Assembly (NCBI GenBank): GCA_029262055.1
Contig: JAJDAD010000011.1
Coordinates: forward strand, 1 to 64,000
Source of the DNA: Candidatus Zhuqueibacterota bacterium
Lineage (GTDB): Bacteria > Zhuqueibacterota > Zhuqueibacteria > Oceanimicrobiales > Oceanimicrobiaceae
Length of the DNA stretch: 64,000 nt
Reading direction: 5' to 3'
A program made the translations under genes and the position numbers. How positions within the stretch are numbered: the stretch's first letter is position 1; every line of letters begins with the position of its first letter. Under the pieces are notes generated by a model that worked only from the letters and a program-made list of their open reading frames with translations, searched no databases and was not told where the DNA came from. Shown here in pieces: positions 13,272 through 17,930 of the stretch.

Positions 13272-13931
13272 ATGCTTGATTGGCTCCCGCAGAACGTTTC
13301 CACGTTCGGCAGTGAAATCGATAAATTCTTCTATGTCATATACTATATCACCACGACAGTTTTCTTTCTAGTCACCGCTGCCATGATCTACTTCCTGGTG
13401 AAATATCGCTTCCAGGAAGGAAAGCCCGCGAGATACTACCATGGCAACAATACACTGGAAATAGTCTGGACCAGTGCCACCTTGGTGGCCATGCTCATTC
13501 TCGCGGTGGCGAGCAAACCTCTGTGGAGCAAAATCAAACAAAACCCTCCTCCGGCGGAAGTCATAATCAAAGTGACCGGCAAACAGTATAACTGGGAAGT
13601 ACTTTATCCCGGACCTGACGGCGCATTCGGCACTGACGATGACTATCAAGTAGACAATAACGTGCATGTGCCGGTCAACAAAGTTGTGCATGTCCTGCTG
13701 GGTTCGATCGATGTAATCCACAGCTTCTTCGTCCCGCAATTGCGACTGAAACAAGATGCCGTTCCGGGCAGAGAAATCGTCGCCTGGTTCGAAGTAACCG
13801 AGGCCGGCAGTTATGAAATCCCTTGCGCCGAATTGTGCGGCTTCGGGCATTCCGGCATGCTGGGGCGCTTGATCGTCCACAGTCCTGAGGAATACGAGCA
13901 GTGGGTTGGCCAGACCTGGCCGGACAATTGA
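13272..13931 (+). CDS. coxB: cytochrome c oxidase subunit II
   Basis: This 219-residue protein has two N-terminal TM helices (about 16-45 and 60-85) followed by a periplasmic cupredoxin domain. The CuA ligands are visible in CAELCGFGHSGM (two Cys, His, Met) with the upstream His in DVIHSFFVPQLRLKQD. WEVLYPGPDG is typical of the caa3/aa3 group. No fused cytochrome c domain is present, so a separate cytochrome c must deliver electrons. The gene leads the oxidase operon and has a strong ribosome site (GAGGAGG). It accepts electrons from cytochrome c and passes them to subunit I at the inner membrane. Confidence 0.95.
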   Translation: MLDWLPQNVSTFGSEIDKFFYVIYYITTTVFFLVTAAMIYFLVKYRFQEGKPARYYHGNNTLEIVWTSATLVAMLILAVASKPLWSKIKQNPPPAEVIIKVTGKQYNWEVLYPGPDGAFGTDDDYQVDNNVHVPVNKVVHVLLGSIDVIHSFFVPQLRLKQDAVPGREIVAWFEVTEAGSYEIPCAELCGFGHSGMLGRLIVHSPEEYEQWVGQTWPDN

Positions 13932-14015: not shown

Positions 14016-15848
14016 ATGAGTGAAGCAACCGCGGTAAAAGAGCACATTTCCCACGAGCACCACGGGTTTATGAATACCTATATTTTTTCTCTGGACCACA
14101 AGATGATCGGCAAACAGTTTCTGCTCCTTGGTCTGATCATGCTTCTCCTCGGAGGTGGACTGGCCCTGCTGGTTCGCTGGCAACTCGCGTACCCGGAACA
14201 GCCATTGCCTTTGATAGGTGCTTCGCAGCACTATCTGGAGACAGGTGAGGCTGAGACCGCAATGGATTCCTACTGGGATTCCGAATTGTCCAAGACCGAA
14301 GATGAGCAGGGCTGGCTGGTGCAGAAGATGCCCGTTGGCATTATTACCCCCGCTTTCTACAACGCGCTCTTTACCATGCATGCCACTATCATGGTGTTTT
14401 TCGTTGTTATGCCAATCCTGGTTGGGGCCTTCGGCAACTATCTCATCCCCTTGATGATCGGAACACGGGATATGGCGTTCCCGCTGCTCAACATGCTTTC
14501 ATTCTGGATCGCGGTTGTCTCCGGGGCGATCATGCTCGCAGGTTTTTTTGTTCCCGGGGGTCATGCCGCGACCGGCTGGACCGGCTACCCGCCTCTGTCC
14601 ACGGACCCGGCCTGGACCGGCGTGGACTGGGGCCAGAACCTCTGGTGCATAAGCTTGATCGTTTTGGGCATTTCTTCGCTCATGGGCTCGATTAACTATA
14701 TTACGACGATTATCAATATGCGCGCGCCGGGTATGACCTACATGCGTATGCCGATGGTGATTTGGGCTCTGTTTATCGTTGCAATCTTGTTGCTGCTGGC
14801 TTTGCCGGTGCTCACCGCCGCCCTGGCAATGTTGGTGTTTGATCGCTTGGCGGGCACGACCTTCTTTAATCCTGCTGGCGGTGGCGACCCGCTTCTTTGG
14901 CAGCACCTGTTCTGGTTTTTCGGACATCCGGAGGTTTACATTCTCATCCTACCCGGGATGGGCATCACTTCAGAAATATTACCCGTCTTTTCAAGAAAAC
15001 CGATATTTGGCTACAAGGCAATGGTTTTGGCCATGGCAAGCCTGGCGTTTCTCAGTTGGATCGTTTGGGGCCATCACATGTTCCAAAGCGGCATGAATCC
15101 ATCCATGGGCATGACTTTCATGATTACCACCATGGTGATCGCCGTACCCTCGGCAATCAAAACGTTCAACTGGCTGGGCACTTTGTGGGGAGGGAGCATT
15201 CGCTTTACAGTGCCGATGTTGAACAGCCTGGCTTTTGTCTCGATGTTTGTCATCGGAGGTCTTTCCGGGATCTTCATGGCTTCGTCGGCAGTCGATATTT
15301 TCATCCATGACACATATTACATCGTGGCGCACATTCACTACGTGGTCTTCGGTGGCAGTATCTTTGCGATCTTTGCGGGAGTCTACTACTGGTTTCCAAA
15401 GATGTTCGGAAGAATGATGAATGAACCACTCGCCAAAGTCCACTTTTGGCTGTCGTTCATCGCTTTCAACTGTACATTTTTTCCCATGCACATTCTGGGT
15501 GTCGGCGGCCACATGCGGCGTATTTACAACCCCATGCAATACGAATTTCTACAGCAGTTTGAGCACATGAATATCTTCATCACGATGAGCGCATTTGCCC
15601 TGGGCTTGACGCAATTGATCTTGCTCTTCAACGTCTTTCATAGCATGTTTCGCGGAAAGAAAGCCGGTGACAATCCCTGGAATGCAAACACCCTGGAATG
15701 GACAGCCGCGACTCCGCCGCCACATGGAAACTTCGACGCTATTCCAACTGTGCACCATGCGCCTTATGAATACAGCGCTCCGGGCATTTCTGAAGATTGG
15801 CTGTCGCAAACCAATGAACTGCAACCGACAAATGGCAATGGACACTAG
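14016..15848 (+). CDS. coxA: cytochrome c oxidase subunit I
   Basis: This is a 610-residue heme-copper oxidase catalytic subunit with about twelve TM helices. The active-site HPEVYILILPGMG motif carries the CuB His and the cross-linked Tyr. The adjacent CuB histidines are in WGHHMFQSGM, and the heme ligands in VAHIHYVVFGG. It reduces oxygen to water and pumps protons. The N-terminus (about residues 55-115) has an insertion before the second TM helix containing a hydrophilic loop (ETAMDSYWDSEL). It sits 84 bases after coxB, in the same operon. A purine-rich site (AGGAAAAG) precedes the ATG. Confidence 0.96.
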   Translation: MSEATAVKEHISHEHHGFMNTYIFSLDHKMIGKQFLLLGLIMLLLGGGLALLVRWQLAYPEQPLPLIGASQHYLETGEAETAMDSYWDSELSKTEDEQGWLVQKMPVGIITPAFYNALFTMHATIMVFFVVMPILVGAFGNYLIPLMIGTRDMAFPLLNMLSFWIAVVSGAIMLAGFFVPGGHAATGWTGYPPLSTDPAWTGVDWGQNLWCISLIVLGISSLMGSINYITTIINMRAPGMTYMRMPMVIWALFIVAILLLLALPVLTAALAMLVFDRLAGTTFFNPAGGGDPLLWQHLFWFFGHPEVYILILPGMGITSEILPVFSRKPIFGYKAMVLAMASLAFLSWIVWGHHMFQSGMNPSMGMTFMITTMVIAVPSAIKTFNWLGTLWGGSIRFTVPMLNSLAFVSMFVIGGLSGIFMASSAVDIFIHDTYYIVAHIHYVVFGGSIFAIFAGVYYWFPKMFGRMMNEPLAKVHFWLSFIAFNCTFFPMHILGVGGHMRRIYNPMQYEFLQQFEHMNIFITMSAFALGLTQLILLFNVFHSMFRGKKAGDNPWNANTLEWTAATPPPHGNFDAIPTVHHAPYEYSAPGISEDWLSQTNELQPTNGNGH

Positions 15849-15866
15849 ATTCCGGGGACACATGCT

Positions 15867-15983
15867 TTGCAAGAAAGTCTGACACACAGCAAGAAAAAAA
15901 ACTGGCGGACGCTGCTGGTTTTGCTAGGCGTCCTTGTATGTTTGTATGCACTTTCCGTCATAGTTATTTTGGTGAAAAATTGA
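15867..15983 (+). CDS. 38-residue single-TM protein in the oxidase operon
   Basis: This short frame lies between coxA and the first subunit III-like gene. It starts with TTG at 15867, 18 bases after the coxA stop, and its TGA is followed directly by the next ATG (TGAATG). The peptide has a basic N-terminus (HSKKKNWR) and one helix of about 21 hydrophobic residues (TLLVLLGVLVCLYALSVIVI), ending LVKN. This fits an N-in, C-out single-span membrane peptide. Tight packing between two oxidase genes and the convincing TM segment support a real gene. It may be an accessory subunit like the small helices seen in many oxidases. A GGGG stretch precedes the TTG. No ATG is available. Confidence 0.65.
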   Translation: MQESLTHSKKKNWRTLLVLLGVLVCLYALSVIVILVKN

Positions 15984-16661
15984 ATGTCTGACGTATTTAC
16001 AGAAGAGAGGGCAAACACCCTGGTCCAGGATTACGGCGGCACGCCCCCGCCAATAGGCGCCGGGCCCTCTGACCCGGGTAATGGTGGGCGGCAAGACTCT
16101 TCTGGGAAGTCCCATGCAAATGCCATCCTTGCCATGGCTCTCTTCCTAGGTGCGGACGTGATGTTTTTTGCAGGTTTAATTGGCGCTTTTGTTGTTTTTC
16201 GTTTCGGCGCACTGCACTGGCCGCCGCCGGGACAGCCGTTGTTGCCTTTGGGGATCACCGGAATAAACACCGGGATTCTACTAATCAGCGGTGCCTTCAT
16301 GGTGAAGACATGGCAAAATATAGACAGATGGCCCCACAAGAAGATAACAAAAGCGCTCACCCTGACAACCCTGTTAGGAATGACGTTCCTGCTGGTGCAA
16401 GGGTACGAATGGTTTCGCTTGGTCGCGTTTGGCTTCAAACTAACTTCAGGGACTTTCGGTGGAACGTTCTACACGTTGATAGGATGCCACGCCTTGCACG
16501 TTATGGGCGCTGTTCTTTGGCTTGCGACAGTAACCGTCAGGCTGGCCCGCAACCGATTAGATCAGCAGCAGCGGAACACCTCGATTGCGCTAATCGGCAT
16601 GTACTGGACGCTGGTGGTGGCGCTGTGGCCAATCCTGTATGGACTTGTCTATTGGAACTAA
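15984..16661 (+). CDS. cytochrome c oxidase subunit III family protein (first copy)
   Basis: This 225-residue protein has about five TM helices. Subunit III features include LFLGADVMFFAGLIGAFVVFRFG early, QGYEWFRLVAFGFKLTSGTFGGTFYTLIGCHALHV in two parts mid-protein, and a C-terminal WTLVVALWPILYGLVYWN helix. The Glu in QGYEW and the His in GCHALHV are the usual conserved positions. Subunit III stabilises the oxidase core and proton uptake. It starts exactly after the small TM gene. A second, shorter paralogue lies at 16953-17570, so the operon carries two subunit III-like genes. Confidence 0.88.
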   Translation: MSDVFTEERANTLVQDYGGTPPPIGAGPSDPGNGGRQDSSGKSHANAILAMALFLGADVMFFAGLIGAFVVFRFGALHWPPPGQPLLPLGITGINTGILLISGAFMVKTWQNIDRWPHKKITKALTLTTLLGMTFLLVQGYEWFRLVAFGFKLTSGTFGGTFYTLIGCHALHVMGAVLWLATVTVRLARNRLDQQQRNTSIALIGMYWTLVVALWPILYGLVYWN

Positions 16662-16673
16662 ACTAACGCCCGC

Positions 16674-16940
16674 ATGAAATTACAGCAACTAAAAGCTAAA
16701 ATACCTGGACTCGTGATGATTGCTTGCGCCACTGTCATCCTACACCCGGGACAAATGTTCGCATGTCCGGGATGTGGTGCCGCCCTCGGTGCCACCGTAG
16801 GGCGAGGGTTCAACATGAGCATTTATTTCCTGATGGCGATGCCGTTTTTGGTGTTTGGCTCGATCATCACAGGTGTGGTGTGGGCGAAGAGAAACAGCCT
16901 CCCGACAAAAACAGAACTATCCCTACATCAAACCAAATGA
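16674..16940 (+). CDS. small membrane protein with CPGCG motif in the oxidase operon
   Basis: This 88-residue protein lies between the two subunit III genes, 12 bases after the first. A cleavable or anchoring signal (about 9-31, GLVMIACATVILHPGQMFA) precedes ACPGCGAALGA, a CxxC pair that would face the periplasm. One TM helix follows (about 47-72, MSIYFLMAMPFLVFGSIITG), then a basic tail (WAKRN). It has no recognised family. The CxxC could bind metal or do thiol-disulfide exchange, for example in copper delivery to CuA, but that is inference. Its position inside the operon makes a link to oxidase assembly or stability likely. Confidence 0.75.
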   Translation: MKLQQLKAKIPGLVMIACATVILHPGQMFACPGCGAALGATVGRGFNMSIYFLMAMPFLVFGSIITGVVWAKRNSLPTKTELSLHQTK

Positions 16941-16952
16941 AGGAGAATGACA

Positions 16953-17570
16953 TTGAGTCAAGTTTCCACAGTTGAGACAGCAATCGACCCGGTCGAATCA
17001 CCGCTCACTCCTGATAGCAGTGGCAAGCTGGGAATGTGGATTTTCCTGGCAGGAGACGCCATGTCGTTTGGCGGACTTCTTGCCGGTTATGGTGCGCTGA
17101 GGGCCGGCAGCCCGGATTGGCCGGTGCCACAGGAGGTACTGGGTATTTCGCTGACCGCGTTCATGACCTTTCTACTTATTGTCAGCAGCTTAACAATGGT
17201 GAAAGGACTTTCCGCGATTCAGAATGGTGATATCAAAGGAATGATTCGTTTTCTTTCGCTGACTGTTCTGGGTGGAGTCATTTTTCTTGGCCTACAAGCC
17301 TACGAATGGACGCACTTGATGCACCGGGAGATTCTGTTCACCAGTAATCCATTTGGCGACTACCTGTTCGGCAGCACGTTCTACATAATTACCGGGTTCC
17401 ACGGAGCTCATGTCACCGGCGGAGTCATTTACCTGGCGGTCTTAGCCATCAGAGGCTTGCAGGGAAAACTCGATGCAAACAACTCCAGTATCGTCGAAAT
17501 CGCGGGACTGTATTGGCATTTCGTCGATCTGGTCTGGATTCTGGTATTTACGTTTGTCTACTTAATATAA
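16953..17570 (+). CDS. cytochrome c oxidase subunit III family protein (second copy)
   Basis: This is a subunit III homologue with five or so TM helices. GLQAYEWTHLM carries the conserved Glu, FHGAHVTGGVIYLAVL the conserved His pair, and the C-terminal helix is YWHFVDLVWILVFTFVYLI, the classic subunit III ending. TTG at 16953 is preferred as the start because AGGAG (16941-16945) lies 7 bases before it; the in-frame ATG at 16947 would leave one base of spacing. The C-terminus is closer to textbook subunit III than that of the first copy. It is followed after 18 bases by subunit IV. Confidence 0.9.
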   Translation: MSQVSTVETAIDPVESPLTPDSSGKLGMWIFLAGDAMSFGGLLAGYGALRAGSPDWPVPQEVLGISLTAFMTFLLIVSSLTMVKGLSAIQNGDIKGMIRFLSLTVLGGVIFLGLQAYEWTHLMHREILFTSNPFGDYLFGSTFYIITGFHGAHVTGGVIYLAVLAIRGLQGKLDANNSSIVEIAGLYWHFVDLVWILVFTFVYLI

Positions 17571-17588: not shown

Positions 17589-17930
17589 ATGAGCTCTGCT
17601 CATCAAGAACCTGATTACATGAAGATATTCTTCGCTTTGACAGTATTGACAGCAGTTGAAGTGGGCATCATCTATCTGCCAATTGGGAAACTCGCCATAG
17701 CGATTGCGCTGATCCTTCTGGCGCTTGGTAAAGCGGCCCTGGTTGCACTCTATTTTATGCATTTGCGCTTCGAGAAAGTGGGCGTGGGGATTATCGCCTT
17801 GACGCCGCTCTTTCTATGCACCTTGCTGATATTCAGCCTCCTGCCCGATCTCCTAGGAATGGCCCACAAAAAGCAACATGACCAGGCAGAAAAACCCGCA
17901 AGCAGTGTTGAGCAAGGTTTCAATCACTAA
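17589..17930 (+). CDS. cytochrome c oxidase subunit IV (caa3 type)
   Basis: This 113-residue protein has three TM helices: IFFALTVLTAVEVGIIYL, IAIALILLALGKAALVALYFMH and a third around residues 75-95. HLRFEK after helix 2 is the usual motif of prokaryotic subunit IV. It packs against subunits I and III and helps assembly. A strong site (GGGAGG) precedes the ATG. It is the last gene of the oxidase operon, followed by a hairpin at 17948-17989. Confidence 0.9.
   Translation: MSSAHQEPDYMKIFFALTVLTAVEVGIIYLPIGKLAIAIALILLALGKAALVALYFMHLRFEKVGVGIIALTPLFLCTLLIFSLLPDLLGMAHKKQHDQAEKPASSVEQGFNH

Follow-up and report, generated by a model that had tools for sequence, protein, structure and literature searches.

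In the 64,000-nucleotide stretch of DNA from a Candidatus Zhuqueibacterota bacterium that was analysed here (the window), positions 15867–15983 of the forward strand are, on the comparative evidence described below, a real gene under purifying selection, and its 38-amino-acid product is a predicted one-helix membrane protein. Comparisons across genomes indicate that this small gene, of 36–38 codons, has been kept alongside a single cytochrome oxidase clade in four phyla. We propose, with about an even chance of being correct, that the product acts as an assembly or stability factor for subunit I (CoxA) of the oxidase, held in the membrane by its one helix with the N-terminus inside.

The gene lies within a cluster of oxidase genes that share its strand. 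It is preceded by coxB/ctaC, which encodes subunit II (13272–13931; TIGR02866 and PF00116), and coxA/ctaD, which encodes a subunit I with intact CuB ligands and Tyr (14016–15848; PF00115, with TIGR02891 slightly under its cut-off). It is followed by a first COX3-like gene (COX3a, 15984–16661; PF00510), a gene for an 88-aa CxxC membrane protein (16674–16940) that is conserved in the same operons and is treated here as context, separate from the small protein, a second COX3-like gene (COX3b/ctaE, 16947–17570; PF00510), and the gene for subunit IV (COX4_pro, 17589–17930; PF03626 and TIGR02229). The initial annotation had described a TTG-initiated frame of 38 codons that begins 18 bases after coxA, stops directly before the next ATG, and encodes a basic start plus one transmembrane helix. 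The coordinates agree with this description: the coxA stop codon ends at 15848, the TTG lies at 15867, the TGA stop occupies 15981–15983, and the ATG of the next gene abuts it at 15984. A Shine-Dalgarno-like GGGGA, read from the sequence, is located at 15854–15858 on the same strand, 8 bases 5′ of the TTG.

With TTG taken as Met, the product is MQESLTHSKKKNWRTLLVLLGVLVCLYALSVIVILVKN. Its basic residues (K9, K10, K11, and R14) stand ahead of the single helix, as the initial annotation had read them. The predicted transmembrane segment reaches its highest hydrophobicity over the 19 residues 18–36 (15918–15974, forward strand; Kyte-Doolittle mean 3.09), and AlphaFold2, applied to the 38-aa product, placed a helix at residues 12–37 with a mean pLDDT of 82.5. 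By the positive-inside rule, the basic N-terminus would be cytoplasmic, with one helix crossing the membrane and a very short C-terminus outside. Codons 12–14 (15900–15908, forward strand), at the predicted cytoplasmic end of the helix, read N-W-R in the window and mostly N-R-R in relatives.

The evidence for a gene comes in the first place from close loci. A CoxA search of 60 related genomes found clade-1 coxA in 14 of them, as 13 long loci and a fragment in G054; the long loci include the window's own, and their CoxA proteins are 75–100% identical. A frame of like type is found 3′ of coxA in 13/13 of these loci, the 12 frames other than the window's starting with ATG or GTG and spanning 31–40 codons. 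In alignment A1, which holds 12 clade-1 proteins (L013, whose protein is identical to that of L012, was omitted), N12 and R14 are invariant and L19, L26, and N38 are near-invariant; N12 and R14 are also conserved at 90% or more in alignments A3 and A6. None of the 13 clade-1 sequences has an in-frame stop in the 31 codons that were aligned. Pooled pN/pS for 10 pairs over 31 codons was 0.35 in frame vs. 2.16 and 0.99 for the two shifted frames, and 0.53 vs. 1.76 and 1.01 for all 78 pairs; the pairs share sequences and are hence non-independent, and with the identical proteins of L012 and L013 the 13 loci are not all independent either. Despite this shared-sequence problem, two single close pairs agree with the pooled values: L004/L005 differ by 4.0 synonymous vs. 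1.0 nonsynonymous changes, and L007/L009 by 9.5 per 25.2 synonymous sites vs. 7.5 per 67.8 nonsynonymous sites. Conservation in relatives and a synonymous/nonsynonymous comparison had both been named in the initial annotation as checks on the frame, and both came out in its favor. From purifying selection, we infer that the small gene is translated. Two artefactual origins were considered. A short frame with a TTG start could be open merely by chance, an explanation that the 13/13 close loci, the occurrence in four phyla, and the selection test reduce to practically nothing. The frame could likewise be a C-terminal piece of coxA, which is ruled out by loci elsewhere, where ctaB (mostly together with ctaA) intervenes between the two, and by the gap of ~1.2 kb that separates them in L124.

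The distribution of the small gene follows that of one type of oxidase. The A1 profile was compared with 82 genomes of the window's phylum, 22 of which lay outside the CoxA search, and 15 matched at E up to 0.01. Fourteen of these are exactly the 14 clade-1 coxA genomes, including G054, which is outside the profile; the 15th (G016, E 0.006) aligns to half of the profile, lies within a 308-aa frame, and was taken as chance. Nowhere in the genomes of G002 and G004, which carry clade-2 coxA, was a match found, and thus A-type oxidases do not in general require the small gene. A CoxA scan of named genomes yielded 80 further loci, none of them contained in the A1 profile, which nevertheless detected L035 (an uncultured proteobacterium by its record; E 1.7e-10), the Poribacteria loci L069 (E 1.6e-5) and L031 (E 1.3e-4), and L034 from Deltaproteobacteria (E 0.0028). 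The match to L032 (Entotheonella) was weak (E 0.39), and this locus was included because of the place of its frame before COX3. A profile built with these five loci matches them at 1.1e-10 or lower by construction, and nothing else among 97 loci (L014–L110) fell below 0.38. The five are all the loci with a CoxA at least 60% identical to that of the window, save L033 (63% identical, with ctaA and ctaB present), in which no recognizable small gene was found.

Whole phyla were also surveyed. In the phylum of G082 (L031, Poribacteria), 55/84 genomes match the A5 profile, which contains L031 and L069, at E up to 0.001, and a whole-genome profile search of the phylum of G083 (L032, Entotheonella) found the small gene in 4/5 genomes. 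For the phylum of G085 and G086, two overlapping draws of 345 and 297 genomes gave five context-supported genomes each and six in union (G085, G086, G145, G238, G310, and G353), with G145 being matched at 1.4e-8 by a profile lacking it; the remaining matches listed in this phylum are weak, and those that were read sit inside larger frames. At L191–L200, in the same phylum as the Poribacteria loci, the small protein is longer, in open frames of 81–158 aa, and the ones read contain a second hydrophobic segment. Genome G082 carries two copies of the small gene, on contigs C121 and C381; the copy on the short contig adjoins COX3a and the CxxC gene, and the second copy may be an assembly or binning effect.

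Neighboring genes were examined in 44 loci, covering 20 of the 55 matching genomes in the Poribacteria phylum (L183–L200, L031, and L069). A COX3a match lies downstream in 42/44 loci (the exceptions are L035 and L148), and the gap between the small gene and the aligned part of COX3a ranges from 1 to 398 bases. Beyond the window's phylum, the heme O synthase gene ctaB is located upstream in 30/30 loci, with no more than 210 bases between the end of its aligned part and the small gene, whereas the upstream gene found in the 14 loci within that phylum is coxA. The slot named in the initial annotation, between coxA and a subunit III gene, thus applies to the window's clade but not to other clusters, where the gene follows ctaB, and two clusters without the first COX3 keep it. 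The older order was likely coxA-ctaA-ctaB-small-COX3a, from which ctaA-ctaB would have moved away in the window's phylum. In genome G000, ctaA-ctaB is located on another contig (C85), on which the family profile found no copy of the small gene (best E 2.6); the linkage of the small gene to ctaB is therefore not universal. At L124 (G054), a candidate dihydrofolate-reductase-type frame, recognized by eye at ~733–1314, separates coxA from the small gene; the latter remains with COX3a.

The arrangement in the window, with the stop codon abutting the COX3 start codon, would suit a leader peptide, or a coupler of translation, acting on the COX3 gene that follows, in which case the peptide itself would be unimportant. 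Yet its amino acids are conserved, as the in-frame pN/pS attests, the distance to COX3a varies over hundreds of bases, and no COX3a was found in two clusters that have the small gene (L225 and L226, described below); we reject this explanation as very improbable.

Clusters with altered CuB ligands provide further information on function. CoxA ligands were read in 70/72 loci (L001–L069 and L216–L218, except L026 and L027, where CoxA was not matched; L070–L110 lie outside the sample), and 68 of these 70 have His at all three CuB positions. In the other two, L035 (G086) and L217 (G238), Gln replaces two of the three CuB histidines, with the Tyr, the heme ligands, and the subunit II CuA motif all kept. 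In longer stretches from the same genomes (L226 of G086 and L225 of G238), the order is coxB-coxA-ctaA-ctaB-small-COX3b, and neither cluster has a COX3a or CxxC match; the G086 contig ends just after COX3b, and the absence of COX3a in G086 is a cluster-level observation. In L216 and L218, near relatives from the same phylum whose CoxA begins with a very similar sequence, the ligands are intact and the order is small-COX3a-CxxC-COX3b. The ligand changes in G086 and G238 may be one shared event. Because the small gene is kept despite the changed CuB ligands and with no COX3a adjacent, its product would serve subunit I or an earlier step, and the two clusters argue against a role in CuB insertion or with COX3a. 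A copper chaperone for CuB is disfavored on these grounds and also because the helix and C-terminus of 39 aligned family sequences contain no conserved Cys, His, Met, Asp, or Glu, which makes a copper-carrying role unlikely; a partner of COX3a is similarly disfavored by the presence of the small gene in L225 and L226. The enzyme with the Gln-substituted CoxA may act on another substrate or hold another metal. Its assignment to the eNOR group is unsupported: the definition in the available part of the source places Gln at the Tyr position (PMC8756737), whereas L035 and L217 retain this Tyr.

The 88-aa CxxC protein encoded in the window has a signal-like N-terminus, the CxxC motif, and one helix, and no Pfam model matches it at threshold. 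Members of its family are found in numerous oxidase clusters from several phyla (94 hits in all loci together, counting duplicates and weak ones) and also near clade-2 oxidases. A genome-wide search with the CxxC profile gave no hit in G086; its single hit in G238 belongs to a second oxidase cluster, of which only the first CuB histidine was read. Because it is missing in both clusters with the two-Gln CoxA, the CxxC protein is a candidate copper-insertion factor. The known CuB factors are Cox11 (PF04442) and caa3_CtaG (PF09678). Neither has a match in any of the 14 genomes with the window-type oxidase (G000 and 13 related ones); among 14 control genomes, PF04442 was matched in Caulobacter and PF09678 in B. 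subtilis and C. glutamicum. In the phylum of G086, Cox11 was found in 0/99 genomes. A second A-type oxidase cluster of G000 (L030, G000:C48) is without the small gene and has a divergent CxxC gene nearby.

Neither Pfam nor NCBIfam contains a model that comes near any cut-off with the small protein of the window, and we found no report of its family in the open literature; no such small protein is mentioned in the available part of a review on assembly proteins of bacterial oxidases (PMC9145763), and short hypothetical genes in oxidase clusters are mentioned in the accessible portions of two other papers (PMC8239418; PMC4013037). Of the proteins already described, the nearest is SEP20 of Sinorhizobium meliloti, which, according to the available part of its description, has 46 aa and one predicted helix, is encoded between ctaB and ctaG, shows ribosome-profiling coverage without passing the authors' strict filter, and is further documented by a single peptide match, by the signal of a tagged form on a Western blot, and by its presence in a membrane-containing fraction; its authors propose a role in oxidase assembly or function (PMC10117765). 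Thus, the initial suggestion of a new small oxidase subunit stands insofar as the product is a conserved, predicted single-helix membrane protein tied to the oxidase, but its kind is not wholly new. SEP20 resembles the small protein in its basic N-terminus and in its one helix; its gene follows ctaB within an oxidase cluster, a slot that the small gene takes in 30/30 loci of other phyla and in none of the 14 loci of the window's phylum, where coxA precedes. The two differ in what follows, namely a Cox11-type ctaG after SEP20 and COX3 in the window-type family (the 14 genomes with the window's oxidase lack PF04442), and the C-terminal tail of eight SEP20-like proteins is longer than in the window's family. 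In neither of two annotated gammaproteobacterial clusters could the interval from ctaD to ctaG accommodate such a gene.

Whether these resemblances reflect ancestry was addressed with alphaproteobacterial clusters drawn from a plasmid collection. An S. meliloti ORF with the slot and length of SEP20 was taken from L175 (CP090106.1), a 3.7-Mb record titled pSymB with a ctaCDBGE-type cluster, the title of which may be wrong, and counterparts were found in seven further clusters. A family profile without alphaproteobacterial members, searched against 1413 peptides, returned 8/8 of these SEP20-like ORFs among 14 hits at E up to 10, the best E of 0.031 being not significant; an earlier run on 2622 peptides returned 4/5 among 11 hits and missed the P. 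denitrificans ORF. Three hhalign comparisons of the family with SEP20-like proteins gave probabilities of 59, 79, and 84, and a control that shuffled columns within segments equalled or exceeded the real score in 2/200 trials with 5 sequences and 32/500 with 7. NF038351 (cyt_ox_assem_30, cytochrome oxidase small assembly protein), a model of 30 positions whose name refers to oxidase assembly, is one of the two NCBIfam models with the most family members matched, although 4/25 members match it below its curated cut-off of 27.5 bits (best E 0.056) and the window protein is unmatched.

Homology of the small protein to SEP20 is thus suggestive, and it likely works like SEP20. The window's family, alphaproteobacterial SEP20, and the NF038351 proteins could be one old family rather than analogues, as the like slot after ctaB, the full recovery of SEP20-like ORFs among the profile hits, the hhalign values, and the NF038351 matches would suggest. 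However, no single E-value is significant, one ORF was missed in the larger run, the shuffle control with 7 sequences is unfavorable, NF038351 does not match the window protein, and the composition of basic one-helix peptides may raise scores; we consider common descent possible, at somewhat short of an even chance. This question concerns ancestry and is compatible with either an assembly factor or a subunit. In mitochondria, COA3 acts on COX1. The model of this assembly factor (Coa3_cc, PF09813) has a basic segment and then one helix, as in the small protein, but its gathering cut-off of 27 bits is not reached: PF09813 matches 2/18 family members (best E 0.013), vs. 7/18 for DUF2116, which places COA3 homology of the window's family at noise level. 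Against the alphaproteobacterial SEP20-like proteins, PF09813 matches 4/5, again under the cut-off (best E 0.0068). It is improbable, in our estimation, that SEP20, the NF038351 proteins, and mitochondrial COA3 all belong with the small protein to a single ancient family of subunit I chaperones with one helix each, and that in its lineages the separate CxxC protein serves CuB in place of Cox11 and caa3_CtaG; if true, the mitochondrial COX1 factor COA3 has bacterial relatives.

The main rival to an assembly factor is a permanent small structural subunit whose single helix would pack against subunit I or III. Small subunits are found in other terminal oxidases, such as CydX and ba3 IIa, with which the small protein shares its size class and likely topology, and its presence with one coxA clade and under purifying selection would suit a subunit as well. 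Nevertheless, none of the four PDB chains matched in sequence at E up to 10 belongs to an oxidase; the gene is kept without COX3a and so does not encode simply a COX3a-bound subunit; and its place beside ctaB resembles that of biogenesis genes. We regard a permanent subunit as a real possibility that falls well below an even chance. If the protein is instead an assembly or stability factor, then the oxidase operon would encode a helper that binds subunit I, its presumed partner, and holds or guides CoxA while the oxidase is built, around the heme stage of assembly. In favor of such a factor are purifying selection, presence in 14/14 clade-1 genomes, the invariable ctaB neighbor outside the window's phylum, retention in the two Gln-CoxA clusters, and the precedent of SEP20, which occupies a like slot and, in the available part of its description, is translated and found in a membrane-containing fraction (PMC10117765). 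Against it are the lack of a copy in L033, the lack of a match in G002 and G004, and the separate contig of ctaA-ctaB in G000.

Together with SEP20, the family suggests that distant bacteria carry, in their oxidase clusters, a gene for a conserved one-helix helper. The clusters with Gln-substituted CoxA point to subunit I, and not to copper or COX3a, as what this helper would serve, which makes its function directly testable.
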